Assembly: GCF_009193155.1 (NCBI RefSeq)
Contig: NZ_VUKD01000001.1
Location: 434,001-498,000 of the forward strand
Direction: 5' to 3'
Length of the DNA stretch: 64,000 bases
Source: Georgenia subflava
GTDB taxonomy: Bacteria; Actinomycetota; Actinomycetes; Actinomycetales; Actinomycetaceae
The position numbers and the translations under genes are program-made. Below, in pieces: positions 8,690 through 38,630 of the stretch. The notes under the pieces were generated by a model that worked only from the letters and a program-made list of their open reading frames with translations, was not told where the DNA came from and ran no database searches. Position 1 is the first letter of the stretch, and each line of letters starts with the position of its first letter.

Positions 8690-10239
8690 GTGCCGTCGAG
8701 GCCGACGTGGACCGCGACGCCCCGGCCAAGAAGTCCTTCCAGTTCCCCGGCGCGGTGACGGTGCTGGCGGTCGTCATGGTGCTCGTGTGGGTGGCAGCCC
8801 TGCTGATCCCCGCCGGCACCTACCAGACGGACGCCGACGGCGCGCCGATCGCCGGGTCCTACGAGCGGGTCGATTCCCCCCTCACCTTCGGTGAACGCGT
8901 CCAGCAGCTGCTCCTCGCCCCGGTCAACGGCGTCTACGGCGTCCAGGACCTCGACACCGGGTTCATCGACACGGAGAACCTCGGTGCGCTCTTCGGCTCC
9001 ATCGGCGTCGTCGTCTTCATCCTGGCCCTCGGGGCGTTCATCTCCGTCAGCTTCGCGACCCGCAGCCTCGAGGTCGCCGTCGGCCAGCTCGCCGCCCGGC
9101 TGGGCGACCGCGGATGGCTCCTCATCGTCGTCGTGATGGCGCTGTTCTCCCTGCTGGGCTCCACGATGGGGTTCTCGGTGGAGACGTTCGGGTTCTACGC
9201 GCTGCTCGTGCCGCTCATGCTCGCCCTCGGTTACGACAAGATGGTGGCCGCGGGCATGATCATCCTCGGCGCCCTGATCGGCGCCATGGCGTCCACCGTC
9301 AACCCGTTCTCCATCGGCGTGGCCTCCGACGAGGCCGGGATCTCCATCGGCGACGGGATCGTTCTCCGGGTCATCCTGTGGCTGCTGCTCACGACGCTGG
9401 CCATCCTGTACGTGCTGCGCTACGCCCGCCGGGTCAGGCGGGACCCCTCCCGCTCCCTCGTCGGCCTCGACCCCGCCGACGCCGCACCCCCGGCCGGACC
9501 GGTCATCACCGAGCGGCTCACCTCGGCTCAGAAGTGGGTGCTGGTCATCACCGGGGTGACCTTCGGTCTGCTGATCTTCTCCGTCATCCCGTGGTCGGCG
9601 ATCCTCGGCGCGACGGCCGGCCCGGCGGAGTACGACCAGGTGCACGAGACCGCCGCCGAGCCGTACTGGTTCGAGCTCGGCTGGTGGTTCCCGCAGCTCG
9701 TGGTCCTCTTCCTCGTCGCCACGATCGCCGTCGGCCTCGTATCGAGGATGGGCGAGAAGCGTCTGGTCTCGCTCGTCACCCAGGGCATGGGCGACATGAT
9801 GGGGCCCGCCATCGTCATCGTCCTGGCCCGCGGCGTCGCGGTCATCATGTCCAACACCCAGACGCTGGACACCGTCCTGAACGCGATGGAGCAGGCGGTC
9901 AGCGGCGCGTCCGCGGGCGTCTTCGCCGTTCTCGTCTCGGTCGTCAACGCCCCGCTCGCCTTCCTCATCCCTTCCTCCTCCGGCCACGCCACCCTCGCGA
10001 TGCCGCTGCTCGCCCCGCTCAGCGACTTCGCCGGGGTCAGCCGGGCCCTGACGATCACCGCGTACCAGATGGGGCACGGATTCATGCTGCTCGTCTCCCC
10101 CACCAACGTCGTCGTCGTGGGCGGACTCGCCATCGCGGGCGTCGGCTACGACAAGTACCTGCGCTTCGTCGCCCCGTTCCTGGGCGTCGTCGCCGTCGCC
10201 GTCGCCGTCGTCCTCGTCCTGGCCGCGACCGTCGGCTGA
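8686..10239 (+). CDS. YfcC family (C4-dicarboxylate/arginine-ornithine antiporter-like) carrier
   Basis: Integral membrane carrier of 517 aa with about twelve hydrophobic segments, of the YfcC/DcuC (ion transporter) superfamily. Typical features are the N-terminal WVAALLIPAGTYQ stretch, the loop STMGFSVETFGFYALLVPLM, the motif ASTVNPFSIGVAS and the second half LIPSSSGHATLAMPLLAPL. Members move dicarboxylates, amino acids or short peptides. The ATG overlaps the M20 peptidase stop (ATGA), so both proteins are probably made from one mRNA and work on the same nutrient. DUF1269 and SLC13-type genes follow at 57 and 12 bp. Confidence 0.88.
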   Translation: MSAVEADVDRDAPAKKSFQFPGAVTVLAVVMVLVWVAALLIPAGTYQTDADGAPIAGSYERVDSPLTFGERVQQLLLAPVNGVYGVQDLDTGFIDTENLGALFGSIGVVVFILALGAFISVSFATRSLEVAVGQLAARLGDRGWLLIVVVMALFSLLGSTMGFSVETFGFYALLVPLMLALGYDKMVAAGMIILGALIGAMASTVNPFSIGVASDEAGISIGDGIVLRVILWLLLTTLAILYVLRYARRVRRDPSRSLVGLDPADAAPPAGPVITERLTSAQKWVLVITGVTFGLLIFSVIPWSAILGATAGPAEYDQVHETAAEPYWFELGWWFPQLVVLFLVATIAVGLVSRMGEKRLVSLVTQGMGDMMGPAIVIVLARGVAVIMSNTQTLDTVLNAMEQAVSGASAGVFAVLVSVVNAPLAFLIPSSSGHATLAMPLLAPLSDFAGVSRALTITAYQMGHGFMLLVSPTNVVVVGGLAIAGVGYDKYLRFVAPFLGVVAVAVAVVLVLAATVG

Positions 10240-10296
10240 TCCAGACCCGGGCCGGGACCCCGGCACCGGACGACCTCACGGAACGGAGCACCACCC

Positions 10297-10782
10297 ATGT
10301 CCGAGCTCATCGTCCTCGGCTACGACGACCACGCCACGGCCGAGAAGGCGTACCAGAAGGTCCTGGACCTGCAGCGCGACTACATCGTCACGCTCTCCGG
10401 TCTGGCCGTCGTGCGCGTCGACGACGACGGCAAGCAGCACGTGGACACCCCGGGGCGCATCGTCGGGGCCTCCGCCTCCTCGGGCGCCGTGTGGGGAATG
10501 ATCATCGGCCTGCTCTTCCTCGCCCCCGGCATCGGCTTCCTCGTCGGCGGCGCGCTCGGCGCCCTGACCGGCAAGCTCAGCAAGTCGGGGATCAACCAGT
10601 CCTTCCGGGCGCGGGTGGGCGAGATGCTGGAGCCGGGGCGGGCCGCCGTCGTCGTGATGGCCACCAAGATCACCGAGGACAAGTTCGCCGCGGCCCTGGC
10701 CGAGTACGGCGGCACCGTCCTGCAGACCTCGCTCTCCGACGAGGACGAGAAGGAGCTCGCGGCCGAGCTCAGCGCGTCCTGA
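10297..10782 (+). CDS. DUF1269 domain membrane protein
   Basis: Protein of 161 aa matching the DUF1269 family of unknown function. A ferredoxin-like N-terminal part (MSELIVLGYDDHATAEKAY) is followed by a glycine-rich hydrophobic hairpin (ASSGAVWGMIIGLLFLAPG, then FLVGGALGALTGKLSKSGI). The C-terminal part contains GEMLEPGRAAVVVMATKI. It lies between two transporter genes, 57 bp after one and 12 bp before the next, so it is probably cotranscribed. No function can be assigned; a membrane-associated accessory role is a guess from position. Confidence 0.85.
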   Translation: MSELIVLGYDDHATAEKAYQKVLDLQRDYIVTLSGLAVVRVDDDGKQHVDTPGRIVGASASSGAVWGMIIGLLFLAPGIGFLVGGALGALTGKLSKSGINQSFRARVGEMLEPGRAAVVVMATKITEDKFAAALAEYGGTVLQTSLSDEDEKELAAELSAS

Positions 10783-10794
10783 CCCCGGGCAGCC

Positions 10795-12594
10795 ATGACC
10801 CTCGACCCGGCGGTCACGAGCCTGCTCGTCCTGGCCGCCGCCGTCGCGGTCTTCGTCTGGAACCGCCTCCCGGTGGGGGTGGTGGCGGTCCTGACGGCGC
10901 TCGCCCTGTACGCCACGGGCCTCCTCGACGCCGGACAGGCTCTCGGCGGCTTCGGCGACCCGGTGGTGCTCTTCGTCGCCGGCCTCTTCGTGGTCTCGGA
11001 GGGGCTCGACGCCACGGGTGTCACCACCTGGGCGGGGCAGGCCATCACGGGGCGGGCGGGGACGGGACGGTCCGCGCTGCTCGTCGCCGTCATGGTCCTG
11101 GCCGCCGTGCTCACGGCCTTCATCAGCCCGAACGGGTCGGTGGCCGCCCTGCTGCCGATGGTCGTCGTCATGGCTGTGCGGAACGGGCACGCACCGGGCC
11201 ACATGCTCCTGCCGCTGGCCTTCGCCGCGCATGCCGGCTCCCTGCTCGCGCTCTCCGGCAGCCCGGTCAACGTCATCGTCTCCGACGCCCTGGCCGACGC
11301 CGGTCGCGGCCGCTTCGGGTACTTCTCCTTCGCCGCGGTGGGCCTGCCCCTGCTGGTGGTCACGGTGATCCTGGCGGTCACCGTCGGCCCGCGACTGCTG
11401 CCCGTGCGCGCCGGTGCGGCACCGACGGACCTCAGCGGTCACGCGCGCACGCTGGCGGGCCACTACACCGCGGGCTCGGACGTCTTCCGGCTCCTGGTGG
11501 GCCTCGGTTCCTCCCTCACGGGCACCACGGTCCGCGACCTCTCCCTCGAAGGAGCGCGGCTGGTCGGGGTCCAGACCGCCGCGGGCGGGAGCGCCACCGA
11601 GGGGCACCGGCTCGCCGACGACGACGCGCTGGTCCTCGCCGGCCCCCGTGCTGCGGTGGAGGAGTTCGCCGCGGCGCACGACCTTGCCATGGGGCCGGGC
11701 CCCGTCCGTCCCGGCCCCGACGACCTGCTCAGGCGGGAGGCCGGCGTCGTGGAGGTCGTGGTCCCGCCCCGTTCGCCGCTCGTGGGTGAGACCGTGTTCC
11801 CCGGCATGGTCCGGCTCGGCGAGATCACCGTCCTGGCCGTGCAGCACCTCGGGCGGGACCGGGGCGCGCGCCCGACCCGGCTCACCGAGGGCGACGCCCT
11901 CCTCCTGCACGGGCGGTGGAGCGCCATCGACACCCTGGTCGACGACCGCGACATCCTGGTCGTGGATGCGCCGTCGGAGCTGCGGCGCCAGGCTGTGCCG
12001 CTGGGGCTGCGGGCGGCGGAGGCGGTGGCCGTGCTGGCGGTCATGGTGGTGCTGCTCGTCACCGAGGCGGTGCCGCCGGCCGTGGCCTCGCTGGGCGCGG
12101 CCGCCGCCATGGTGCTGCTGCGGGTCGTCAGCCCGCACCAGGCGTACCGGTCGGTGTCGTGGGAGACGGTCGTCCTGCTCGGCGGGCTCATACCGCTCTC
12201 GACGGCGATCCAGTCCACCGGTGCGGCCGACCTCATCGCCGGGCACCTCATCGGGGCGGTCGGCCAGGGCAGCCCGTACCTGCTGCTGACCGCTCTCTTC
12301 GTGCTCACCGCCGCGCTCGGTCAGGTCGTCTCGAACACCGCCACCGTTCTCATCGTCGTGCCCATCGCGGTGGTGGCAGCGCTCGAGTCCGGGACCGCCG
12401 TCGAGCCGGTGCTCATGACGGTCGCGGTCGCCGGCGCGTCGTCGTTCCTGACCCCGATCGCCACACCGGCGAACATGATGGTCATGGCGCCCGGCGGCTA
12501 CCGGTTCGGCGACTACTGGCGGTTCGGTCTGCCGGTGCTGGTCGCCTGGCTGGGGGTCGCGCTCCTCGTCATACCGCTGGTGTGGCCGCTGTGA
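10795..12594 (+). CDS. SLC13/DASS family permease with RCK_C (TrkA-C) domains
   Basis: Membrane transporter of 599 aa from the divalent-anion:sodium symporter superfamily. About six N-terminal helices include the family turn SPNGSVAALLPMV and SGSPVNVIVSDA. A cytoplasmic insert of roughly residues 205-385 carries two TrkA-C-like modules (GSSLTGTTVRDLSLEGARLV and RSPLVGETVFPGMVRLGEI). The remaining helices contain VVSNTATVLIVVPIAV and FLTPIATPANMMVMAPGGY. Substrates in the family include sulfate and di/tricarboxylates. It is the last gene of the peptidase/carrier cluster. Confidence 0.9.
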   Translation: MTLDPAVTSLLVLAAAVAVFVWNRLPVGVVAVLTALALYATGLLDAGQALGGFGDPVVLFVAGLFVVSEGLDATGVTTWAGQAITGRAGTGRSALLVAVMVLAAVLTAFISPNGSVAALLPMVVVMAVRNGHAPGHMLLPLAFAAHAGSLLALSGSPVNVIVSDALADAGRGRFGYFSFAAVGLPLLVVTVILAVTVGPRLLPVRAGAAPTDLSGHARTLAGHYTAGSDVFRLLVGLGSSLTGTTVRDLSLEGARLVGVQTAAGGSATEGHRLADDDALVLAGPRAAVEEFAAAHDLAMGPGPVRPGPDDLLRREAGVVEVVVPPRSPLVGETVFPGMVRLGEITVLAVQHLGRDRGARPTRLTEGDALLLHGRWSAIDTLVDDRDILVVDAPSELRRQAVPLGLRAAEAVAVLAVMVVLLVTEAVPPAVASLGAAAAMVLLRVVSPHQAYRSVSWETVVLLGGLIPLSTAIQSTGAADLIAGHLIGAVGQGSPYLLLTALFVLTAALGQVVSNTATVLIVVPIAVVAALESGTAVEPVLMTVAVAGASSFLTPIATPANMMVMAPGGYRFGDYWRFGLPVLVAWLGVALLVIPLVWPL

Positions 12595-12715
12595 CGATCG
12601 CCGGCCCTCGGGTCGGTCGGTACGGGCACGGGCGTCGCCTCACAGGTCCGCGGTGCACCGTCGTGCTGCCCAGACCCGAGCCGCCTCGCCGAGACTTCCC
12701 GGTGAGCGGCCCGGT

Positions 12716-13486
12716 TCAGGCGCGCCGGACGCCGCGGACCTGGGCGGCGAACGCCTGCGCGATGGCCCGGCCGACCGCCGAGACCTCGGCGTCGTGCTCA
12801 CGGGCGGCCGCCACCAGGGCGTCGGTGTCGACATCGTCCTTGTCGGCGGACCAGCGCGCGAGCAGCTCGGGCGAGGCCTCAGGATGGAACTGCACGCCGA
12901 GCGCCGAGCCGAGCCGCATGGCCTGGAACGGATAGGCGTGCGAGTAGGCGAGCCAGACCGCGCCCGGGGGGAGCTCGACGACGGCGTCGGCGTGCATCGC
13001 CGGCTGGCGGGCCGTGCCGAAGCTGTCGGCCAGCCCGGACGCCCCGCGCCGGTCCCCGGCGGAGCCCGCGCGGACGGCGGCACCGAGCACCGGGTCGTCG
13101 GCGGCCTCCGCGCGCCAGGAGATCTCCACGATCCCGGCCTCGCGCCCAGGAGGTGCTGCCACGACGACCCGCCCGCCCGTGGCCTCGGCGAGCAGCTGGT
13201 GGCCGAGACAGATCCCGAGGGTGGGCACACCGCGCTCGACGGCGTCGACCAGCAGCTGCCGGACGGCGGGCAGCCAGGGGGCGACCTCGTCGTCCTGCGC
13301 GTTCATCTTGCCGCCGAGGACCAGCAGCCCCGAGCCGACCTGGTCGGCGCCGGGCACGTCCTCGCCGGCGAACGGGCGCACGATCCGCAGCTCGACGCCG
13401 TCGAGCCAGTCGGCGAAGCGGTCGAGGGGAACCTGCTCGTCGGGCTGCACGACGGTCAGCACCGCGGGAGTGGGGTTCGTACTCAC
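12716..13486 (-). CDS. Class I glutamine amidotransferase (GMP synthase-like)
   Basis: Stand-alone glutaminase-type protein of 256 aa. The nucleophile elbow LGICLGHQLLAEATGG supplies the catalytic Cys, and FHPEAS near the C-terminus supplies the His-Glu pair. There is no ATP-pyrophosphatase domain, so it is not a full GMP synthase. Related stand-alone proteins hydrolyse gamma-glutamyl compounds or serve as subunits of unknown complexes. The GTG at 13486 is chosen because TACCGT lies exactly 6 nt upstream; another in-frame GTG at 13489 is possible. A very long open frame continuing upstream is antisense to the TPM gene and was disregarded. Confidence 0.88.
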   Translation of the reverse strand: MSTNPTPAVLTVVQPDEQVPLDRFADWLDGVELRIVRPFAGEDVPGADQVGSGLLVLGGKMNAQDDEVAPWLPAVRQLLVDAVERGVPTLGICLGHQLLAEATGGRVVVAAPPGREAGIVEISWRAEAADDPVLGAAVRAGSAGDRRGASGLADSFGTARQPAMHADAVVELPPGAVWLAYSHAYPFQAMRLGSALGVQFHPEASPELLARWSADKDDVDTDALVAAAREHDAEVSAVGRAIAQAFAAQVRGVRRA

Positions 13487-13492
13487 CACAGA

Positions 13493-13498
13493 ACGGTA
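13493..13498 (-). promoter_or_regulatory. -10 box of a leaderless amidotransferase transcript
   Basis: TACCGT on the minus strand is followed by 6 nt and GTG, fitting TANNNT-N6-RTG. No Shine-Dalgarno sequence precedes either of the two adjacent GTG codons. Confidence 0.5.
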
Positions 13499-13627
13499 AC
13501 CCCGCACCGTGGCACGGGTCTCGCGGCAACCCCGCGCACGGGTCGCGCCGGGTTCCCCCTCTCCGCCGGGCGCGAACGTGGCCGCGGCAGCGTTGCGCCG
13601 ATTCCGCCCGCCCGAGAGGATCACCGT

Positions 13628-15655
13628 GTGAGACTCGTCGCCGCCGCGCGGACCCTGGCCGTCGCCGCCCTGGTCACCGCCCCTGCCCTGGCCCTCGCGG
13701 GCCCTGCCGCGGCGGAGCCGCCGACCTTCCTCGACGAGCAGGTGACCGACACGGCCGGGGTGCTCGACGACCCCGGTGAGATCCAGGCCGCCTTCGACGA
13801 GGTGGAGGCCGAGACCGGGCAGATGGTCTTCGTCGCCTTCGTCGAGACCTTCGACGGGATGAGCGCCCCGCAGTGGGCTGTCGACACCGCCACCCAGTCC
13901 AACCTCGGACCGGACAACATCCTGCTCGCAGTGGCGGTGGAGGACCGCTCCTACGGGTTCGCGCGGCACAACAGCTCGCCGATCAGCGAGGACCAGGTCC
14001 GCGAGGTCATCCGTGAGGAGGTCCAGCCGGCGCTCGGCGACGACGACTGGGCCCAGGCGGCGATCGGCTTCGCCGAGGGCATCGGCGACGCTGCGGACGG
14101 CGGTCTCGGCGGCGCCACAGGGGGTGGCGGCGGGTTCGGCAGCCTGCTGACCATCGGTCTGCTCGGTCTCGTCGTCATCGGCGGCATCGGGCTGTTCTTC
14201 GTCTTCCGCAAGAAGAAGGACGACGATGGCGGGCAGCCCCGCGAGCGCCGTCGCCAGCTCCCGCCGGACCACCCGCTGAACCTGCCGACGGAGCAGCTGG
14301 CCAACCGGGCGGGCTCGGCCCTGCTGGGCGCCGACGACGCGATCCGCAGCTCCGAGGAGGAGCTCGGCTTCGCCAAGGCGCAGTTCGGTCTGCAGGCCAC
14401 CGATGCCTTCACCGCGGCGCTCGAGGAGGCCAAGGGCAAGGCGCAGCGGGCGTTCACGATCCGCCAGCAGCTCGACGACGACGTCCCCGAGACCGAGCAG
14501 CAGCAGCGCGGGATGTACGCCGAGATCCTCCAGCTCACCGGCGAGATCGACTCGACCCTCTCGGCCCAGGCCGAGCAGTTCGTCAAGCTGCGCAACATGC
14601 AGGCGCGCACGCCGCAGATCCTGAGTGAGCTGGACCAGCGGGCCCGGGAGGTCGAGCGCCAGATCGAGGGCGCGCGCGCCCAGCTCGCCCGCCTGGCCAA
14701 CCAGTACCCCGCCGGGGCGCTCGCCTCGGTGTCGAGGAACCCGGACCAGGCCAAGGCACTGCTCGTCGCTGCCCACGAGTCGGTGGCCACCGGCCGCGCC
14801 AGCGTCGACGCCGGGGACCGCGCAACTGCCGTCACCCACGCCCGGGTGGCCGAGGAGGCCATCGGGCAGGCGGACCGGCTGCTCAAGGCGGTCCACGGCG
14901 CGGGGGACGCGCTGGCCGAGGCCGGCTCGCGGCTCGACACCGCGCTCGCCTCGATCACCGCCGACGTCCAGGACGCGAACCGGCTCGCGCCGAACGACCC
15001 GACGGTCGTCGCGCGCCGCAAGGCCGCCGAGGCCGCCATCGCGCAGGGGCACGAGGCACGGACGGGCGGCGACCCGCTCGCCGCGCTGCAACGCCTCCAT
15101 TCCGCGGAGACCGCCATCGACGCCGCCCTGGCGAGCGTGCGTCAGGCCGACGAGAACAACCGGCGTGCCGCCGCCCAGCTGCACGACCGGCTCGGACGGC
15201 TGAACTCGCAGATCCGCGCGGTCTCGGACTACATCGCCACCCGGCGCGGCTCGGTCGGCACCGAGGCCCGCACCCGGCTGTCGGAGGCCACGAGGCTGGC
15301 TACGGAGGCCAACCGGCTGTCCGGCTCGGACCCGGTCGCGGCGATGCAGAGGGTTGCGCAGGCCGAGCAGATGGCCGCCGCCGCCCAGCAGCTGGCCGAG
15401 CGTGACACCAGCCGCTACGACGACCCGTGGGGCGGCGGGTTCGGGGGTGGCTTCGGGGGCGGCCGACGTGGCGGTCTCGACGTGGGCTCCCTGGTCCTGG
15501 GTGGCATCCTCGGCGGCGTCCTCGGCGGCGGTGGTCACCACGGCGGGTGGGGCGGCGGCGGTGGCTTCGGTGGCGGCTTCGGCGGCGGCGGGTTCGGCGG
15601 CGGGGGCGGTGGCTTCGGTGGAGGCGGCTTCGGCGGCGGCGGAGGGCGCTTCTGA
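13628..15655 (+). CDS. TPM domain-containing membrane protein with Gly-rich tail
   Basis: Secreted/membrane protein of 675 aa. A signal peptide (to about residue 27, ALAGPAAAE) precedes a TPM domain (about 30-150, containing VTDTAGVLDD). After a Gly-rich spacer comes one transmembrane helix (LLTIGLLGLVVIGGIGLFFV) with a positively charged stop-transfer RKKKDDD. A long Ala/Glu/Arg-rich coiled-coil-like cytoplasmic region follows, with Asn/Ala-rich repeats. The tail is almost pure Gly/Phe (GGGFGGGF-type). A GAGAGGA site precedes the GTG start. The next gene is pspA, 87 bp on, which points to membrane-stress or quality-control work. TPM proteins such as B. subtilis YdjH also neighbour PspA homologues. 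Confidence 0.88.
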   Translation: MRLVAAARTLAVAALVTAPALALAGPAAAEPPTFLDEQVTDTAGVLDDPGEIQAAFDEVEAETGQMVFVAFVETFDGMSAPQWAVDTATQSNLGPDNILLAVAVEDRSYGFARHNSSPISEDQVREVIREEVQPALGDDDWAQAAIGFAEGIGDAADGGLGGATGGGGGFGSLLTIGLLGLVVIGGIGLFFVFRKKKDDDGGQPRERRRQLPPDHPLNLPTEQLANRAGSALLGADDAIRSSEEELGFAKAQFGLQATDAFTAALEEAKGKAQRAFTIRQQLDDDVPETEQQQRGMYAEILQLTGEIDSTLSAQAEQFVKLRNMQARTPQILSELDQRAREVERQIEGARAQLARLANQYPAGALASVSRNPDQAKALLVAAHESVATGRASVDAGDRATAVTHARVAEEAIGQADRLLKAVHGAGDALAEAGSRLDTALASITADVQDANRLAPNDPTVVARRKAAEAAIAQGHEARTGGDPLAALQRLHSAETAIDAALASVRQADENNRRAAAQLHDRLGRLNSQIRAVSDYIATRRGSVGTEARTRLSEATRLATEANRLSGSDPVAAMQRVAQAEQMAAAAQQLAERDTSRYDDPWGGGFGGGFGGGRRGGLDVGSLVLGGILGGVLGGGGHHGGWGGGGGFGGGFGGGGFGGGGGGFGGGGFGGGGGRF

Positions 15656-29443: not shown

Positions 29444-29611
29444 CGGCGAGTCACCACGAGCGGCGTGCCACCACTAGGCGCACGCCACCACTCGCGGCGT
29501 GCCGCACTAGCGGTGCGCCACCGCTAGGGGGCAACCCCACAACTCGCGGCGCATCACCACCCGCGGTGCGTCACCCTCGCGGTGCGTCACCCTCGCGGTG
29601 CGTCACCACTC
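29444..29611. repeat. Degenerate 16-17-bp minisatellite at a gene 3' end
   Basis: About ten head-to-tail units of the type GCGGTGCGTCACCACTCG fill the space between the methyltransferase start and the alkyl-DHAP-synthase-like gene. They run a few codons into that gene's 3' end, and its stop codon (29603-29605) is inside a unit. The last three copies (near 29562, 29578 and 29594) are nearly identical with a 16-bp period; outer copies have drifted. Confidence 0.75.
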
Positions 29612-31291
29612 CCGGTGCGCGGGCAGGATGGTCCCCGGGTTGAGGTTCCGGCCCGGGTCGACGCCGCGCAGCAGGGCGACCATGACGTCCGTGCCGGCCG
29701 TGGAGATGTCCTCCTCGAGCCAGTGCGCGTGGTCGGTGCCCACCCCGTGGTGGTGCGAGATCGTGGCGCCGGTGTCGATGAACGACTGCTGGATCGCGTT
29801 CTTGACCACCCAGTACTTCTCGAGCTGCTCCGCCGCCACGTCGGTACCGGGCGCGAATGCGAACGTGAAGTACAGGCACGCGCCGGAGTGATAGCTGTGC
29901 GAGAGGTGGCACATGATGAACCCGCGGCACCCGATCTGGTCGAACGCCTCCTTGGCGGAGCGGAACGTCCCGGAGTACACGTCCTGCAGCTTCGACCACG
30001 GCGCGGCCGTCTCCGAGACGTCCCCCATGGCGCCGATGTCGAGCAGGAAGTCACGGATGTAGGGCGTGTCGAACTTCTTCTGGTCGTACAGCGCGCCTGG
30101 CCCGCGACCGAGCTTGATGCCGCCGTGCTTCTTGACGATCTTGCCCACGACCGACTTCTCGGCCTTCACCCGGGCGTCGCCGCCCTCGTAGCCCACGTAG
30201 GACAGGCACACGGCGTCGAGGTCCCAGCCGCGCCGCTGCAGCACGTCGAAGAGCACCTTCTGCACCTTGCCGGAGACACCCTTGGACTTCTTCTGCGTCG
30301 AGAACGAGAACGCCGTCTCGTTCGCGTCCGAGACACGCGTGACCGTGGGGTGGGCGTCCGACGTCGAGATCTCCTGCATCGCCGCGAGCGCGGCGGTCCA
30401 GCTCGGGTACAGGTAGGCGATGATGTCGCGGTTCTCCGGCATCCGGTGCACGTTGACCCACGCCTCGGTGATGACGCCCAGGCGCCCCTCGGAGCCGAGG
30501 ATCATCTCGCGCACGCTCGGTCCGGACGACGTCGACGGCAGCGGCCGCAGCACCACGACCTTGCCCGGCTGGACCATCCGCAGCCCGCGGGTGATGTCGG
30601 CGATGTCGCCGTACTTGTCGGACTGCATGCCCGACGAGCGCGTGGCGATCCAGCCGCCGAGGGTCGAGTGGCGGAAGCTGTCCGGCTGGTGCCCCATCGT
30701 CCAGCCGCGCGCGTTCAGCTGCTCCTCCATGTCCGGCCCGAGCACGCCGGCCTGGATGCGCGCGAGCCCGGCGGACTCGTCGACCTCCAGCACCCGGTTG
30801 AGCCGCCCGAGGTCGAGCGAGACGACGGTGCGCTCCTCGGCCGGCGGCGGGGTCAGCGAGCCGGAGATGTTCGAGCCGCCCCCGAACGGGATGAGCACGG
30901 CGTCGGCGGCCACCACGGCGTCGACGACGGCGCACACCTGGTCCTCGTCGGCGGGGTAGACCACGACGTCGGGCACCCGCGGCAGGTCCCCGGCACGCAC
31001 CCGCACCAGGTCCGCCAGTCCCTTGCCGTAGGTGTGCACCACACGGTCCATGTCGTCGGTGACCACCTGCTCGTCCCCGACGGCGGCCCGCAGCGTCACG
31101 GCGAGCTCGTCACCGAGCCGCGGTGCCGGGACGGCGATCTCCTCGAACGCCGGTGGCGGGGTGCCGGGCGCGGAGAGGTCGATCCCGACCTTGTCCATCA
31201 CGAACGGTGCCATCTTGGGCTTGTCGCGGTAGTTGAAGGCGATGCCCTCGACCCCCCAGCCCCACCACTTCTGGTGCTGGACACCGTTCAT
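29603..31291 (-). CDS. Alkyldihydroxyacetonephosphate synthase-like FAD enzyme
   Basis: FAD-linked oxidase-fold protein of 562 aa with strong resemblance to AGPS, which swaps the acyl chain of acyl-DHAP for a fatty alcohol to form the ether bond. It has FAD loops IPFGGGSNISGSL and LGSEGRLGVITEAW, the segment DSFRHSTLGGWIATRSSGM, the Tyr region GACLYFTFAF and the His triad SHHHGVGTDHAHW, which is essential in animal AGPS. The N-terminal KWWGWG also fits AGPS. It is the last gene of a four-gene operon; its ATG overlaps the acyltransferase stop (ATGA). Plain lactate/glycolate-oxidase-type flavoproteins lack the HHH signature, so the AGPS reading is favoured, but it is not proven. Confidence 0.85.
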   Translation of the reverse strand: MNGVQHQKWWGWGVEGIAFNYRDKPKMAPFVMDKVGIDLSAPGTPPPAFEEIAVPAPRLGDELAVTLRAAVGDEQVVTDDMDRVVHTYGKGLADLVRVRAGDLPRVPDVVVYPADEDQVCAVVDAVVAADAVLIPFGGGSNISGSLTPPPAEERTVVSLDLGRLNRVLEVDESAGLARIQAGVLGPDMEEQLNARGWTMGHQPDSFRHSTLGGWIATRSSGMQSDKYGDIADITRGLRMVQPGKVVVLRPLPSTSSGPSVREMILGSEGRLGVITEAWVNVHRMPENRDIIAYLYPSWTAALAAMQEISTSDAHPTVTRVSDANETAFSFSTQKKSKGVSGKVQKVLFDVLQRRGWDLDAVCLSYVGYEGGDARVKAEKSVVGKIVKKHGGIKLGRGPGALYDQKKFDTPYIRDFLLDIGAMGDVSETAAPWSKLQDVYSGTFRSAKEAFDQIGCRGFIMCHLSHSYHSGACLYFTFAFAPGTDVAAEQLEKYWVVKNAIQQSFIDTGATISHHHGVGTDHAHWLEEDISTAGTDVMVALLRGVDPGRNLNPGTILPAHREW

Positions 31292-32031
31292 GAAGCCTCC
31301 TCCTGCTGGTTGTCGCCGACCTCGCGGCCCGGGCGGGTGTCGCCGAGCACGTACGGCGTCTGCATGGCGAGCATGGTCTCGACCCGGGCCGCGACGCGGT
31401 CGTTGAAGTCGCGCGCCTTCTCCCCCGGGCGCGGGCGCATGGGCCGCCCGACGAGCATCCGCACCCGTGGGCGCCCGGGAACCGGCCAGTTCCGTCCGAC
31501 CGGCATGGCCTCGTAGGTGCCGAGCAGCGCGACCGGCACGCACGGGACCGACTTGGCCACGCACAGGGTGGCCGCGCCCGGCTTGAAGCGCTTCATCGCG
31601 CCGTCGCGCGAGCGGGTGCCCTCGGGGAAGATCAGCAGCGGGACGCCCTCGCCCAGGAGTCGCTGGGACAGGCCCTTGCCGGTGCGCTTGCCGCCGGAGG
31701 TGCGGTGGATCGGGTAGGTGTTGAAGAACAGCGAGGTCGCCGCCTTCATGTACCAGCGGCTGAAGAAGTAGTCGGCCGCTGCGCCGACGGCGAGGTGCTT
31801 GGTCACCGTCTTGGGCAACGAGGTGACCAGGACGGCGGTGTCGAGGTGGCTGCAGTGGTTGGCGACGACGACGTAGGCCTCGTCCAGCCCGTCGAGGTTG
31901 TCCAGCCCCTCCACGGTGGTGCGGGTGACGGTGCGCACCACCGGGCGCAGCACCATCCGCTGCGCCACGTAGCGGGCGGCGCGGTGCCAGCCGGCGTGGT
32001 AGCGCTTGAGGCTCGGGACGCGGTGGCTCAT
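31288..32031 (-). CDS. 1-acylglycerol-3-phosphate acyltransferase (PlsC-like)
   Basis: Acyltransferase of 247 aa. The catalytic motif is NHCSHLDTAVL (NHx4D). The substrate motif is FPEGTRSRDGAMKRFKPGA, followed by VPCVPVALLGTYEAMP. It transfers an acyl chain from a thioester to a lysophosphatidate-type acceptor at the membrane. In this operon the acceptor may be DHAP, acyl-DHAP products or alkyl-glycerol-phosphate; that is inference. Start and stop overlap both neighbours by 4 bp (ATGA). Confidence 0.92.
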   Translation of the reverse strand: MSHRVPSLKRYHAGWHRAARYVAQRMVLRPVVRTVTRTTVEGLDNLDGLDEAYVVVANHCSHLDTAVLVTSLPKTVTKHLAVGAAADYFFSRWYMKAATSLFFNTYPIHRTSGGKRTGKGLSQRLLGEGVPLLIFPEGTRSRDGAMKRFKPGAATLCVAKSVPCVPVALLGTYEAMPVGRNWPVPGRPRVRMLVGRPMRPRPGEKARDFNDRVAARVETMLAMQTPYVLGDTRPGREVGDNQQEEAS

Positions 32032-32861
32032 CGTCGGCTCCCCTTGATGACGGCGGTGGCCTGGCGCACCAGCGGGCGGGGTGCGTGCTCGGCGAGGAAG
32101 GCCAGCGCCTGGAAACGCTTGGACGGCACCGACCGGACCTTGCCCTTCTCCACGTCGGCGAGGCAGTCGGCGACCACCCGGTCGGCCTCCAGCCACAGCG
32201 CGTCCGGGATGGAGCTGGCGCGGATGCCGGCCCGCTCGTGGAACTCCGTCCGCACCCAGCCGGGCAGCAGCGCGGTGACGGTCACGCCGGTGCCGGCGAG
32301 CTCCAGGGAGAGCGACTCCGAGTACGTGCGCACCCACGACTTCACGGCCGAGTACGACCCCATCGGGATGAGCCCGGCGACGGAGGTCACGTTGACGATG
32401 ACACCGTGCCCGCGGGCCTTCATGGCCCGGCCGGCCGCGGCACCGAGGACGAGCACCGCGCGGATCATGAGGTCCAGGGCGTGCTCGTGCTCGGAGGTGT
32501 CCTCGGCGAGCAGCGGGACGTGCACCCCCTTGCCCGCGTTGTTGACCAGGATGTCCACCGGCGTGGTGGTGTCCCCGAGCCTCGCGGCGACGGCCTGGAG
32601 GGCCTCCCGGTCGGCGAGGTCGGCCACGACGGTCTCCACCTCGACACCGTAGCGCCAGCGCAGCTGCTCGGCGGTCTTGGCCAGCCGGGCCTCGTCCCGC
32701 GCCACCAGCACCAGGTCGCAGCCTCGAGCGGCCAGCGCCCGGGCGAAGGCGAGACCGATGCCGGAGGTCCCCCCGGTGACGAGGGCGCGCCCGCGGAGGA
32801 CGGAACCCTCGGGTGCCGACGCACGTGCCGCCGTCGGGCGGGGTGAGCTGGCCTGACTCAT
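32028..32861 (-). CDS. Short-chain dehydrogenase/reductase
   Basis: NAD(P)-dependent SDR of 277 aa. Cofactor motif TGGTSGIGLAFARAL, NNAG, Ser in VTSVAGLI and the YxxxK pair in GSYSAVKSW are all in place. The C-terminal part has RTEFHERAGI. In the operon it lies between a fatty acyl-CoA reductase and an acyltransferase. By analogy with the eukaryotic acyl/alkyl-DHAP reductase, itself an SDR, it could reduce the ketone of alkyl-DHAP. This role is inference; the family alone only shows a carbonyl/alcohol oxidoreductase. Confidence 0.9.
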   Translation of the reverse strand: MSQASSPRPTAARASAPEGSVLRGRALVTGGTSGIGLAFARALAARGCDLVLVARDEARLAKTAEQLRWRYGVEVETVVADLADREALQAVAARLGDTTTPVDILVNNAGKGVHVPLLAEDTSEHEHALDLMIRAVLVLGAAAGRAMKARGHGVIVNVTSVAGLIPMGSYSAVKSWVRTYSESLSLELAGTGVTVTALLPGWVRTEFHERAGIRASSIPDALWLEADRVVADCLADVEKGKVRSVPSKRFQALAFLAEHAPRPLVRQATAVIKGSRR

Positions 32862-35125
32862 GCCTTGCGTGCTCCCTTGATGCTGCGCAGGACCGGGGAC
32901 AGCCGGCCCTCGGCGGTGGCGGTCCAGGTGTGGATCGGCCAGCGCCGCGCCCGCGCGTACCGGTAGAGGCTGGCGTCGGGGTTCACGGCGTTGGGGTGTC
33001 CGGCGACCTCGAGCCACGACCGGTCCGCATAGCTGTCCCCGTAAGCATAGGACTCCGCCAGGTCCAGGCCGTGCTCGCGCGCGTAGCGGCGCAACCAGGC
33101 GGCGCGGGCCTCCCCCACGAGCGGAGAGGTGGCCAGGTGCCCGGTCCAGCGCCCGTCGTCGTCGGTCTCCATCTTCCCGGCGACGATCTCGTCGAAGAGC
33201 GGCGCGAGCGGCTCGACGAAGACGTCGATCTCGCCGGTGACCAGCACCGTGCGGTGACCGGCCGCGCGGTGCGCCCGGATCTGCTCGATCGCGTCGGTGA
33301 GGAGGCCGCGGCGCAGCGACGGGGTGACGGTGCGGGCGATGACGGCGCGCAGCTCCGCCTCGTCGGCGCCCTCGTAGCGGCGCATGAACGTGCGGATGAA
33401 GTCGCTGCGGTCGCGGCGCTCGGCCTGGAGGTAGCGCGGCCCGAGGGCCACGAGGTTCGCGAGGTTCGTCGCCCAGCTCGACGGCGGCCGGGCGGCCAGC
33501 TCGACCCACAGGTACTGCTCGACCAGCGTCGCGGCGGCGACCGTGCGCTGGAGGTCGAAGACCGCCAGCACGTCGGTGCGGCGGGGCAGCTCGGCTGGCG
33601 CGGCGGGAGCCTCCTTGGCGCCACGGTCGCGCATCAGCCCGGGCACCCCGGGGATGTGGACCTCCTGGAGGTAGTGGCGCCAGTCGATCTCCGTGACGTC
33701 GAAGCCGTGCTCGGCACGCCGCTCGGCGGGCAGGGAGGCGTGCAGCTCGCGCGTGCGGGCGTCGTCGAAGATCACCTCGGTCTGGGTGTACGGCTGGTAC
33801 AGCGAGGTGAACTTGCGCAGCGTGCCGAGGTCGCGGCGGGCCTTGTACAACGCGGACATCCAGCCGCGGGTGCGCTCGTTGGCGGGGAGCCGGCCGACCG
33901 CCCGGTCGGCCAGGTCGACCGCCTTCTCACGACGGCCGAGCGCGCGCTCGACGGCGCCGCGGTGCGGGAACGACCAGGCCGGGACGGCCACGTGAGCGCC
34001 CTCGGCGTCCTTGAGCGGGTTGGCGGAGAAGTACTCGCGCACCAGGTGGACGAGCTGACCGAGGCGCAACGGGTTGGTGATGCTCGAGCTGACCTGGAAG
34101 TAGTGGGAGTCCTCGGCCGGCGGCGGGGCGGCAGCGGCGGCCAGGATGGCGTTGACGACGAAGTCCACCGGGATGATGTCCAGCACGGTGTCGGCGAGCG
34201 CCGGGAACTCCGGGAGGAGGCCGCGTCCGTAGGCGGCGATCAGCGGGTCGGCGACCTTGAAGCCGTCGATCCAGCCCGGGTAGGGGTGCTTGAGGGCCGA
34301 CTCGATGATCGTCGGGCGGACGACGGACAGCCGGTGCCCGGTGCCGGCCCACATCTCCTCGGCGACGCGCTCGCCCATGGCCTTGGTGAACGTGTAGACG
34401 TCGGGCCAGCCCAGCGAGAGAGCGCGGGTGCGGCCGTGCTCGACGAGCTGGTCGCGGACCCAGGCCTGCCGCTTCTCCTCCGCCGCGGCCGAGACTGCGC
34501 CCGCGCCGGCGCGGCGGTGCTCCTTCTTCGCCTCCTCGAGGAGCCGGCCGAGCACCTCCGGCGTGCGGGAGGCCGCCTCGGCCTCCTCGCGGGCGATGAC
34601 GGCGGAGGCGAGCTCGAGGTCGCGGTCGATCTCGTGGTCCAGCGCACGCTCCTCGGCCACGCCCTTGCGCAGGCCCGCGACGTAGCTGGTGGACACGTGG
34701 ACGACGTGCGGGTCGGCGCCGGAGTCGATCAGGGCCTGGTAGAGCGAGACCGGGCCGCCGACGTTGGCGGTGAAGGCCTCGTCGACGGGCAGGTCGAAGG
34801 ACACCGTGGACGCGGAGTGGATGACGACGTCGATGTCGCCCGAGAGGGGCGGGACGTCACCGAGGTCGCCGGAGACGACCGCGACGCGCTCGGCGAAGAT
34901 CGCGGCCGCGTTCTCCTCGCCCACCTGCTTGCGCCACGCCTTGAAGATCGGCTTGCGCAGCAGCTTCTGGACCCGGCGCTCGGCGGTGAGGTCGCCGCGC
35001 GGACGAACGAGCAGGCTGATCCGGGTGGTGGGGTAGGCGGAGAGGAGCTTCTCCAGCACGGCCTGGCCGACGAAGCCCGTACCGCCCGTCAGCAGCACGT
35101 GCGAGGAGTCCAACGGTTGTGACAT
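32858..35125 (-). CDS. Fatty acyl-CoA reductase (NAD_binding_4) fused to HAD-like domain
   Basis: Two-domain protein of 755 aa. Residues about 8-330 form an extended-SDR male-sterility/NAD_binding_4 domain: LLTGGTGFVGQAVLEKLL, HSASTVSFDLPVDEAF and YxxxK in YTFTKAMGE. This is the fold of fatty acyl-CoA reductases that make fatty alcohols. Residues about 335-495 resemble the FAR C-terminal region. From about 520 a HAD-IB/SerB-like domain follows, with VLVTGEIDVF, the Lys in VAGKMET and GDSYADRSWLE, but motif I reads FDLQRT, so the second catalytic Asp is Gln. It is the first gene of the operon; a TAGAGT box lies 7 nt from its ATG. Confidence 0.88.
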   Translation of the reverse strand: MSQPLDSSHVLLTGGTGFVGQAVLEKLLSAYPTTRISLLVRPRGDLTAERRVQKLLRKPIFKAWRKQVGEENAAAIFAERVAVVSGDLGDVPPLSGDIDVVIHSASTVSFDLPVDEAFTANVGGPVSLYQALIDSGADPHVVHVSTSYVAGLRKGVAEERALDHEIDRDLELASAVIAREEAEAASRTPEVLGRLLEEAKKEHRRAGAGAVSAAAEEKRQAWVRDQLVEHGRTRALSLGWPDVYTFTKAMGERVAEEMWAGTGHRLSVVRPTIIESALKHPYPGWIDGFKVADPLIAAYGRGLLPEFPALADTVLDIIPVDFVVNAILAAAAAPPPAEDSHYFQVSSSITNPLRLGQLVHLVREYFSANPLKDAEGAHVAVPAWSFPHRGAVERALGRREKAVDLADRAVGRLPANERTRGWMSALYKARRDLGTLRKFTSLYQPYTQTEVIFDDARTRELHASLPAERRAEHGFDVTEIDWRHYLQEVHIPGVPGLMRDRGAKEAPAAPAELPRRTDVLAVFDLQRTVAAATLVEQYLWVELAARPPSSWATNLANLVALGPRYLQAERRDRSDFIRTFMRRYEGADEAELRAVIARTVTPSLRRGLLTDAIEQIRAHRAAGHRTVLVTGEIDVFVEPLAPLFDEIVAGKMETDDDGRWTGHLATSPLVGEARAAWLRRYAREHGLDLAESYAYGDSYADRSWLEVAGHPNAVNPDASLYRYARARRWPIHTWTATAEGRLSPVLRSIKGARKA

Positions 35126-35138: not shown

Positions 35139-35284
35139 CCGGGGTCGCCGCCCTCGCCCGAGCCACCGCCGTCCCCGGACCGCCGGGCGTGATGCTCGCC
35201 ACGATGCCTACGCTGGTGGAAGGAGCGGGCGTCACGAAGGTCTACGATCTCCGCGTCCGAACGAGACCTGCAAGGATCGGAGCC

Positions 35285-37072
35285 ATGGGCGTCACCGACG
35301 TACCGCAATGGTTGCCCGCAGCGTTCGTCCGCAGCGTGCTCGCCGTCGGGGCCACCGCCCCCCGCGAGGAGATCGAATCCACGTGCCGGCGTCTGCTGGA
35401 CCGCTGGCAGGCGGCCGACCGGCACTTCCACAACCTCCGGCACCTCATCGACGTCCTCGCCCGGGTCGACGAGCTCGCCGAGGAGACGCACCATCCCGAC
35501 ACCGTGCGGCTCGCCGCCTGGTACCACGGCGCCGTCTTCAGCTCGGTGGCGCGCAAGGCCTACTCGCGCAGCGGCGGCGAGGACGAGGAGGCCTCGGCCG
35601 AGCTGGCGACCGCCGAGCTCGGGGCGCTCGGCGTCCCGGAACGGGTCACGGCACGCATCGGCGAGCTCATCCTGAACCTCAAGCGGCACGAGGCCAGCCG
35701 GCGTGACATCGACTGCCTGGCACTGTGCGACGCCGACCTGGCGGTGCTCGCCTCGGAGCCGCAGAAGTACCAGGCGTACCGCAAGGCCGTGCGCGCGGAG
35801 TACGCGCACCTCCCCGCCCGCCACTACGTCGAGGCCCGCACGGCCATCGTCACCAAGCTGCTGAACCGGCGAGACATCTTCGTCTCCCCGATGGGCGCCC
35901 AGTGGGAGGACGCGGCCCGGGAGAACCTCTCCGCCGAGCTGGACCGGCTGCACGCCGAGCACGCCCGGCTGGGCGAGGCCGGGCCGGAGGACTCGGTGGC
36001 CGCGGCCGAGGCCGCGCAGGGCGAGATCACGCAGGAAGAGCCACGGGCGGACGACGGCGACACGTCCGTCCCCCACACGTTCACCTCGGCCCCGCCGAGC
36101 TCGCTCCCGGGCTGGGCGGGGCACGGCACACCGTCGTCCGCCGGCAACCGTGCGCCCCGTCGGGAGGGTGCAGCCGCGACGGCGCAGGGGGACGAGGTCG
36201 GTGACGACGCGTCGGCCACCGGGCAGGCTGCCGCCGAGGCGCCCGCCGGCGAGACACCCGCCTCCGAACCCGCCGCAGGGACACGGACGTCCGAGCCCGC
36301 CGGCGAGACGCGCGGCTCCGAGCCCGCCTTCCGGAGCTCCGAGCCCGCCACCGGGACATGGACCTCCGGGCCCGCCCTCGGGTTGCCGTCCTCCGGCCGG
36401 GCCGCATCCCGCGCAGCGGGCCGGTCGTCCTCGCTCGAGGCCCTGCCGGAAGAGCTCGACGCGCCGCGCCGTCGGGGCGACGACGAGGCGACGTCCGATC
36501 GTGAGGAGATCGCACGGTCGTCGCGAGGGCGCATCGAGGCGGCCGTACGGCTCGGCCGCGAGCGCGCCGAGCGCGAGCGCCGGCAGCGCGAGCGACTGGC
36601 CGCCGCACGCGCCGAGCGGGCGGGCGCGATGGGGTTGCGCGAGCGCCGGACCGGCCAGGGCGACGGCGTCACGTCGGCGCGGACGGCGGCCTCTTCGCTG
36701 TCGGCACGGACGGCGGAGTCCGCGGTGTCGCCGAGGACGGCTGACTCGCCGGCGCCGGCACGGACGGCGGACTCACCGGCGTTCCCAGGCACGGGCGCCT
36801 CGCCGGCGTCCGCACCCAGCTCGGTCACCCCGCGTGAGGCGGTGACCGGTGCCAGCCCGGCCGAGGCGGCGGCGTCCCACGTGCCGCTCGAGCACCGACC
36901 GGCCGTGGACGACGTGCCGCGGATGATCGAGCCTGACCCGCTGACCGGTGCACGCACGCGCGTCGACGACGCACCGCTCCACGGCATCGAGCGCGAGCCG
37001 GACTACGACCGACCGCGACGCAAGGACCGCAAGGACCGGAAGGGCCGAAAGAAGGGGCGCGCGGAGCGCTGA
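35285..37072 (+). CDS. HD-superfamily protein with degenerate HD dyad and long disordered tail
   Basis: Protein of 595 aa. Residues about 1-210 match the predicted metal-dependent HD phosphohydrolase family (COG4339 type): WQAADRHFHNLRHLIDVL and AVRAEYAHLPARHYVEAR. The signature dyad, normally WFHDAVY, reads WYHGAVF here, so the metal-ligand Asp is Gly. Residues about 215-595 are low-complexity with imperfect repeats (SEPAGETRGSEP; SARTAESAVSPRTADSPAP) and an Arg/Glu-rich helix, ending in a Lys/Arg/Gly-rich tail. A paralog with an intact dyad lies 0.65 kb downstream. It may be a non-catalytic partner; that is inference. Confidence 0.8.
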   Translation: MGVTDVPQWLPAAFVRSVLAVGATAPREEIESTCRRLLDRWQAADRHFHNLRHLIDVLARVDELAEETHHPDTVRLAAWYHGAVFSSVARKAYSRSGGEDEEASAELATAELGALGVPERVTARIGELILNLKRHEASRRDIDCLALCDADLAVLASEPQKYQAYRKAVRAEYAHLPARHYVEARTAIVTKLLNRRDIFVSPMGAQWEDAARENLSAELDRLHAEHARLGEAGPEDSVAAAEAAQGEITQEEPRADDGDTSVPHTFTSAPPSSLPGWAGHGTPSSAGNRAPRREGAAATAQGDEVGDDASATGQAAAEAPAGETPASEPAAGTRTSEPAGETRGSEPAFRSSEPATGTWTSGPALGLPSSGRAASRAAGRSSSLEALPEELDAPRRRGDDEATSDREEIARSSRGRIEAAVRLGRERAERERRQRERLAAARAERAGAMGLRERRTGQGDGVTSARTAASSLSARTAESAVSPRTADSPAPARTADSPAFPGTGASPASAPSSVTPREAVTGASPAEAAASHVPLEHRPAVDDVPRMIEPDPLTGARTRVDDAPLHGIEREPDYDRPRRKDRKDRKGRKKGRAER

Positions 37073-37721: not shown

Positions 37722-38630
37722 GTGGCCATCCTCGTCGACCCGCCCCGCTGGCCCGCGCACGGCACCGTCTGGGCGCACCTGGTCTCCGACACCTCGCTGG
37801 TGGAGCTGCACGCCTTCGCGCGGTCGAACGGCGTGCCGCGGCGGGCCTTCGACCTCGACCACTACGACGTACCCGCCGAGCGCATCGACGATCTGGTCGA
37901 AGCCGGCGCGGAGCGTGTCGAGGGGCGTGTCCTGCTCTCCCGGTTGCGCGGGTCAGGGCTGCGGGTGCGCGGGGCCGACCGCGCTGACGAGACCGCGCGC
38001 CGCCGTCGCGCGGAGCTCGCCGGCCGCTGGGCCGCGCTCGTGGACGAGCCGCCGCCGGGGTGGGCCGAGCTGGGTGAGGAGCTGATCGCACGATGGAGCG
38101 AGCCGCACCGCCGCTACCACGACCTCGTCCACCTTCACGACGTCCTGCGCCACCTCGACGACCTCGGCGACGACGGCGAGGAGGTGACCCGGTCGGTGCG
38201 ACTGGCCGCGTGGTTCCATGACGCCGTCTACGACGGTGTTCCCGGCGTCGACGAGGAGGCGTCGGCGATGCTCGCCGAGGACCGGCTGCGCACGGTCGGC
38301 GTACCCGCCGCCGAGGTGACGGAGGTGAGCCGGCTCGTGCGACTCACGGCCGGGCACTCCCCCGGCCCGGACGACCCCGCCGGCGCCGCGCTCTGCGACG
38401 CAGACCTGGCGATCCTGGCCGCCGCGCCCGCCCGGTACCGCATATACGGCTCTGCCGTGCGAGCCGAGTACGCACACGTCCCCGACGCCGACTTCCGCCG
38501 CGGACGAGCAGCCGTGCTCGCGGACCTGCTCGGACACGACAGGCTCTTCACCACGGCGGCCGGGTTCCGGCGGTGGGAGCAACGCGCCCGGGAGAACATC
38601 GCCGCCGAGCTCGGGGCGTTGCAGAGCTGA
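37722..38630 (+). CDS. DUF4031 fused to HD-superfamily phosphohydrolase
   Basis: Fusion of 302 aa. Residues about 1-85 are a DUF4031 domain (MAILVDPPRWPAHGTVWAHL, SNGVPRRAFDLDHYDVP). Residues about 110-302 are an HD-type phosphohydrolase of the COG4339 kind: RYHDLVHLHDVL, the intact dyad in AAWFHDAVYDG, and CDADLAILAAAPARYRIY. It parallels the larger HD gene upstream but keeps the catalytic Asp. The GTG start is 6 nt from a TAGCAT box. Substrate unknown; a nucleotide is the usual guess for HD enzymes. Confidence 0.87.
   Translation: MAILVDPPRWPAHGTVWAHLVSDTSLVELHAFARSNGVPRRAFDLDHYDVPAERIDDLVEAGAERVEGRVLLSRLRGSGLRVRGADRADETARRRRAELAGRWAALVDEPPPGWAELGEELIARWSEPHRRYHDLVHLHDVLRHLDDLGDDGEEVTRSVRLAAWFHDAVYDGVPGVDEEASAMLAEDRLRTVGVPAAEVTEVSRLVRLTAGHSPGPDDPAGAALCDADLAILAAAPARYRIYGSAVRAEYAHVPDADFRRGRAAVLADLLGHDRLFTTAAGFRRWEQRARENIAAELGALQS

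Follow-up and report, generated by a model that had tools for sequence, protein, structure and literature searches.

Animals and Dictyostelium make ether lipids through dihydroxyacetone phosphate (DHAP) in a peroxisomal pathway comprising FAR1, GNPAT, AGPS, and PexRAP, and the mammalian GNPAT and AGPS form a complex (excerpts of PMC9131029). Among bacteria, excerpts of the same review treat plasmalogens in aerobes as a myxobacterial exception. Myxococcus xanthus has both the MXAN_1676-1674 genes, in which fatty acyl-CoA reductase (FAR) and acyltransferase form one protein, and the elb locus; excerpted accounts of the latter give FAR-like and acyltransferase domains, a HAD protein (ElbB), and acyl-CoA synthetase and acyl carrier protein (ACP) domains in ElbD, and the excerpts of PMC9131029 mention no AGPS for elbA-elbE. 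The vinyl ether of plasmalogens is formed from the alkyl ether with oxygen by CarF/TMEM189/PEDS1. Anaerobic synthesis by PlsA/PlsR reaches the same end product by reducing ester lipids (excerpts of PMC9702350). Here we describe a window of 64,000 nucleotides from Georgenia subflava (positions 434001-498000 of contig C3, genome G000, within a 4.3-Mb genome), in which four adjacent minus-strand genes at 29603-35125 encode, in order, a FAR fused to a HAD domain (FAR-HAD), a short-chain dehydrogenase/reductase (SDR), a PlsC-type acyltransferase, and an AGPS-like flavoenzyme: the same four protein kinds as in the animal pathway.

We consider it probable that the four genes form one operon for aerobic, DHAP-type synthesis of ether lipids (1-O-alkyl glycerolipids), a prediction that draws on gene order, protein families, active-site residues, conservation, a gene fusion, and co-occurrence, and whose substrates and products are all deduced from these. 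Fatty alcohol would arise from acyl-CoA through FAR, and acyl-DHAP from DHAP through PlsC; the AGPS enzyme would then swap the acyl group of acyl-DHAP for the fatty alcohol, and the SDR would convert alkyl-DHAP to alkyl-glycerol-3-phosphate, which would enter ordinary phospholipid synthesis. Two further proteins, D1 and D2, may then introduce the vinyl-ether double bond into the alkyl products, giving plasmalogens. As a whole this would be a complete animal-like DHAP pathway in aerobic actinobacteria, finished by D1/D2 as a second plasmanyl desaturase without CarF/PEDS1 or PlsA/PlsR, and the window organism would make plasmalogens; we give this full reading a probability of about 0.38.

The locus differs from the animal pathway in that its genes are arranged as a bacterial operon, its acyltransferase is PlsC-like, and its FAR carries a HAD domain; unlike in MXAN_1676-1674, the acyltransferase is a separate protein. 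It also lacks the architecture of ElbD, no AMP-binding or ACP domain being matched in the four window proteins (Pfam).

Assignment of the Flavoenzyme to the AGPS Family

An earlier note on this DNA had read the four genes as an ether-lipid operon and had named, as one result that would tell against it, a grouping of the flavoenzyme with D-lactate or glycolate oxidases; by matches to solved chains, trees, and active-site positions, the enzyme groups with AGPS instead. Its matches among solved chains are Dictyostelium AGPS (E 4.7e-110) and guinea-pig AGPS (E 5.7e-78), the top D-lactate dehydrogenase match being far weaker (E 2.9e-17), and BLASTP identities are 38% to the Dictyostelium enzyme, 31% to the guinea-pig enzyme, and 26% to the product of a GlcD-like gene that lies close to the operon of L067. 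The FAD_binding_4 plus FAD-oxidase_C architecture expected of AGPS is present. Ten of 11 compared positions, numbered by counting along the solved guinea-pig chain, are identical in all 24 operon-type rows (H300, D303, S304, S367, R419, R515, Y578, H615, H616, and H617), and the eleventh, T309, is T in 20 rows and S in 4. H300, D303, R419, R515, Y578, and H615-H617 are active-site residues of AGPS, and the HHH motif that the earlier note had pointed out is indeed there, at residues 513-515.

D303 is replaced by E (12) or Q (5) in all 17 rows from other actinobacterial AGPS-like proteins (drawn from L084-L112), which sets the operon type apart from them. These proteins represent a second actinobacterial AGPS-like type, whose function may differ. 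In trees from which the M. xanthus AGPS homologue MXAN_1676 was left out, the operon-type rows and a neighbouring fusion protein, P0239, lie on one side of a branch with support of 100, and there is little support for any one way of joining the main AGPS groups. The flavoenzyme is thus, on sequence grounds, an AGPS-family enzyme, which would carry out acyl-to-alkyl exchange on acyl-DHAP.

The Reductases and the Acyltransferase

The earlier family calls for all four proteins agree with the Pfam matches, and the 4-bp overlaps it described are confirmed as ATGA at all three junctions. The FAR call is further borne out by a match of residues 5-504 to the solved fatty acyl-CoA reductase 7eoz (E 6.9e-56); the C-terminal HAD domain at residues 521-706 had not been listed. 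The domains and motif expected of alcohol-forming FARs (NAD_binding_4, Sterile, and Y-x3-K) are present. In the alignments of FAR, SDR, and PlsC, the rows are the window protein and those of fetched loci matched across three quarters or more of its length. G14, G17, G20, Y244, and K248 of FAR are invariant in the 59 rows, as are the Asp524, G696-D697, and D701 positions of the HAD domain. HAD phosphatases normally have Asp at the position matching 526, which is never Asp here (E in 34, Q in 17, and H in 8 of the 59 rows), making the fused domain an unusual HAD. The catalytic residues S160, Y170, and K174 of the SDR are kept in 77/77 rows, and its top NCBIfam model is mycolate_SDR, with a score of 171.5 bits where the cut-off is 380. 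PlsC matches the solved PlsC 5kym (E 3.2e-15) and keeps H59 and D64 (H-x4-D) in 79/79 rows.

Conservation and Fusion of the Operon Genes

Relatives were obtained from one scan of genome contigs as the best 80 of 307 AGPS matches, a set biased to close relatives; the closest AGPS among the matches listed, from Georgenia sp. EYE_87, is 91% identical, with very near genomes possibly omitted. The gene order, which the earlier note had proposed to check, was compared in this set: in 80/80 fetched relatives, a PlsC gene sits no more than 2.2 kb upstream of AGPS and shares its strand, and the SDR is in line in 75/80, on the opposite strand in 1, and not seen nearby in 4, two of which have less than 2.4 kb of upstream DNA. 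Linkage of this extent indicates that the gene association is more than chance. FAR-HAD is present in the fetched DNA of 58 of the 80 loci, on the same strand in 25 (the window arrangement) and on the opposite strand in 33, and 7 of the 22 loci without it have less than 3.4 kb of upstream DNA. A search of 15 genomes for FAR gave a full-length copy in 12 (in one, G331, already beside AGPS), two pieces in G337, and HAD-like matches only in G302 and G339. In four Propionibacteriaceae loci (L028, L029, L051, and L067), FAR-HAD is located elsewhere in the genome, not near the operon, and endonuclease-IV-like and CobQ-like open reading frames (ORFs), named by sequence inspection, lie upstream of the operon.

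In the metagenomic protein P0239, an acyltransferase (residues 34-181) is fused to an AGPS (345-792), the latter 58% identical to the window AGPS and the former 31% identical to the window PlsC over 214 aligned columns. Because mammalian GNPAT and AGPS act as a complex, this fusion favours PlsC feeding AGPS. The predicted pathway, as suggested in the earlier note, thus gains support from the AGPS grouping, the FAR match, the conserved gene association, and the PlsC-AGPS fusion.

With a threshold of E 1e-60, AGPS is matched in 53 of the 296 Actinomycetota genomes sampled, 52 of which, besides the window's own, have at most 40% identity. Operon-type genes also occur in two loci labelled Mycobacterium (L024 and L025), with AGPS 72-73% identical to that of the window, which suggests transfer between families.

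A Diiron Protein Pair Associated with the Operon

D1 is a ferritin-like diiron protein with its metal ligands kept, and D2 is a paralogue in which they are lost. D1 is found within the operon locus, alongside FAR and always with the second paralogue, in 38 of the 80 loci; in the window's own genome, some 435 kb separate the D1-D2 pair from the operon. The predicted model of D1 best matches acyl-ACP desaturases, and its ligands (E, E-x2-H, E, E-x2-H on a helical bundle) are those of the acyl-ACP desaturase fold. Its score against the acyl-ACP desaturase family PF03405 is 18.8 bits, under the cut-off of 22.7, and the own-genome D1 has no Pfam match at E 0.01. D1 is 12-19% identical to acyl-ACP desaturases (DesA2 and the castor stearoyl-ACP desaturase) in ten rows, and differs from them in having a D2 partner.

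Among 394 genomes of the class, the window's own included, operon-type AGPS (at E 1e-140) is found in 37 and D1 (at E 1e-20) in 40, with both in 22; D1 is present in 18 of the 357 others (Fisher P 8e-16, relatedness uncorrected). By genus, D1 occurs in 7/10 AGPS genera and 9/128 others (P 7e-6, likewise uncorrected). We tentatively put forward D1/D2 as a candidate CarF-independent vinyl-ether desaturase. It would catalyze the same step as CarF/PEDS1 with a different protein, CarF being a member of PF10520 and D1 having an acyl-ACP-desaturase-like model. Operon genomes without D1 would make alkyl ethers only.

Dimethyl Acetals in Aerobic Actinobacteria

Dimethyl acetals (DMA) are markers of plasmalogens. 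Subtercola vilae DB165 contains 17.0% i-16:0, 3.2% a-15:0, and 1.9% a-17:0 DMA by peak area, about 22% in total; DMA are also recorded in S. frigoramans, S. boreus, and S. lobariae, and in Agreia (iso-C15:0 DMA, up to 4%), with none given for Frondihabitans (excerpts of PMC5945732). In Kineococcus, a-15:0 DMA was identified by gas chromatography-mass spectrometry in a peak that MIDI had named C14:0 2OH, and DMA were read as a sign of plasmalogens (excerpts of PMC7472656). A 15:0 anteiso aldehyde/DMA is reported from Frigoribacterium strain D8 and the F. faeni type strain, and not from two other species (excerpts of PMC12823222). The excerpts of these three papers name no genes for the branched DMA in Subtercola, Agreia, Frigoribacterium, or Kineococcus.

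We find the operon in S. vilae DB165 (L040) and in genome records that carry the names S. lobariae, S. boreus, Agreia pratensis, and F. faeni, the strain name being identical in lipid paper and genome record for S. vilae only. Neither PF10520 nor PF09989, which we take to be the marker of PlsA/PlsR, is found in the five DMA-linked operon genomes (G308, G306, G307, G310, and G316). The operon together with D1/D2 offers a genetic hypothesis for the DMA on record in these aerobic genera. The ether-lipid reading of the earlier note, which had stopped at alkyl ethers, is supported, and the comparative evidence points beyond it to plasmalogens. If D1/D2 does make the vinyl ether, aerobic plasmalogen synthesis would have arisen twice, with unrelated desaturases.

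Counterevidence and Alternative Explanations

Several observations weigh against the ether-lipid and plasmalogen readings. The SDR, a candidate alkyl-DHAP reductase, has generic matches only, and PlsC, the candidate DHAP acyltransferase, resembles acyl-glycerol-3-phosphate acyltransferases. Disrupting MXAN_1676 in M. xanthus lowered ether lipids only slightly (excerpts of PMC9131029). For the genus Georgenia, this strain included, we found no lipid data. The published Subtercola profiles conflict: DMA go unmentioned in PMC9287328, where summed feature 8 is abundant in several species of the genus; it lists 15.6% 2-OH C14:0 and 0.8% summed feature 8 for S. vilae, and the former value fits a MIDI misnaming of a-15:0 DMA as C14:0 2OH. 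D1 is lacking in 15 of the 37 class genomes with operon-type AGPS, is matched in 17 of 36 individually searched operon genomes (in one, G338, interrupted by stops), and is not found at E 1e-5 in five Georgenia-labelled operon genomes. Conversely, 18 of the 394 class genomes have D1 without operon-type AGPS: 12 of these match FAR-HAD with E values no higher than 4.6e-186, six lack a FAR match at E 1e-30 (G225, G268, G686, G352, G372, and G515), six show no AGPS of any type at that threshold (G225, G477, G686, G419, G483, and G515), and G225, G686, and G515 have neither. Locus L215 (genome G419) holds, at its positions 7985-15026, FAR-HAD, a Zn alcohol dehydrogenase, the lactate-racemase-like Lar_N, PlsC, and D1 in a row, with no AGPS. 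The D1-only genomes and L215 mean that D1, in at least some of them, either acts on a different substrate or draws its ether lipid from elsewhere.

The leading alternative is that the operon makes only saturated alkyl ethers and D1/D2 has an unrelated role, for example as an acyl desaturase or other diiron oxidase. We regard this as a serious possibility, short of even odds: D1 occurs without FAR in the six class genomes, three of which also lack AGPS, and in L215 with FAR and PlsC in the absence of AGPS; it is missing from the five Georgenia genomes, and lies far from the operon in the window's own genome. Against this alternative stand the co-occurrence of D1 with operon-type AGPS beyond chance and the paired presence of D1 and its paralogue in nearly half of the fetched loci. 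Furthermore, S. vilae has D1/D2 and its high DMA content, yet unsaturated acyl chains are absent from the table of PMC5945732, as excerpted, and amount to about 2% in another table.

It is unlikely that the plasmalogens come from a source other than the operon, such as anaerobic PlsA/PlsR, CarF/PEDS1, or a FAR-PlsC-D1 set containing Lar_N. Orthologues of plsA/plsR are reported from several actinobacterial orders (excerpts of PMC9702350), and CarF-family members occur in 12/296 sampled Actinomycetota genomes. The same PF10520 search gives no match in 28 operon genomes, including the window's own, and PF09989, whose search gives matches in 4/14 control genomes, is found in neither the window's own genome nor S. 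vilae and in only 1 of the 28, which is not a DMA taxon. That genome (G317, Ruaniaceae bacterium KH17, locus L229) may hold both aerobic and anaerobic plasmalogen routes. Beyond L215, Lar_N lies beside FAR in eight Subtercola loci (L031-L036, L039, and L040) and Labedella L053 and in none other of the 80, so Subtercola DMA could also draw on the Lar_N gene set, a further point against the plasmalogen reading. In the Subtercola and Labedella loci, Lar_N accompanies a complete AGPS operon. Against a Lar_N source, the loci of the DMA genera Agreia and Frigoribacterium have D1 and the operon with no Lar_N match.

A fatty-alcohol or wax-ester pathway, with the flavoenzyme an unrelated oxidase, is improbable: FAR also serves wax pathways and a WS/DGAT family match turns up in 14 of the 28 genomes with the operon, but the AGPS active-site positions are retained in the flavoenzyme, P0239 joins an enzyme of this type to an acyltransferase, and the absence of a WS/DGAT match from the window's own genome, as from S. 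vilae, weakens this alternative, raised in the earlier note, for this organism. Also improbable is a role of D1 as an aldehyde-deformylating oxygenase turning FAR-derived aldehydes into alkanes.

Locus Features and Neighbouring Genes

Table 1. Coordinates of operon features within the window
Feature	Position	Strand	Description
FAR-HAD	35125-32858	minus	755 amino acids; Pfam NAD_binding_4 residues 12-327, Sterile 436-494, HAD 521-706
HAD-IB domain of FAR protein	33008-33565	minus	residues 521-706
SDR	32861-32028	minus	277 amino acids; Pfam adh_short; candidate acyl/alkyl-DHAP reductase
PlsC-type acyltransferase	32031-31288	minus	247 amino acids; Pfam Acyltransferase; candidate DHAP acyltransferase
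AGPS-family flavoenzyme	31291-29603	minus	562 amino acids; Pfam FAD_binding_4 and FAD-oxidase_C
HHH motif of AGPS-like protein	29755-29747	minus	residues 513-515; aligns with guinea-pig AGPS H615-H617
ATGA 4-bp overlap, FAR/SDR	32858-32861	minus	
ATGA 4-bp overlap, SDR/PlsC	32028-32031	minus	
ATGA 4-bp overlap, PlsC/AGPS	31288-31291	minus	

Two genes lie beside the operon, at 37722-38630 and 35189-37072, of which one has a DUF4031 domain and one (627 amino acids) is without a Pfam match. ORFs resembling these two genes are also found close to L004 of Georgenia and L013 of Jiangella.
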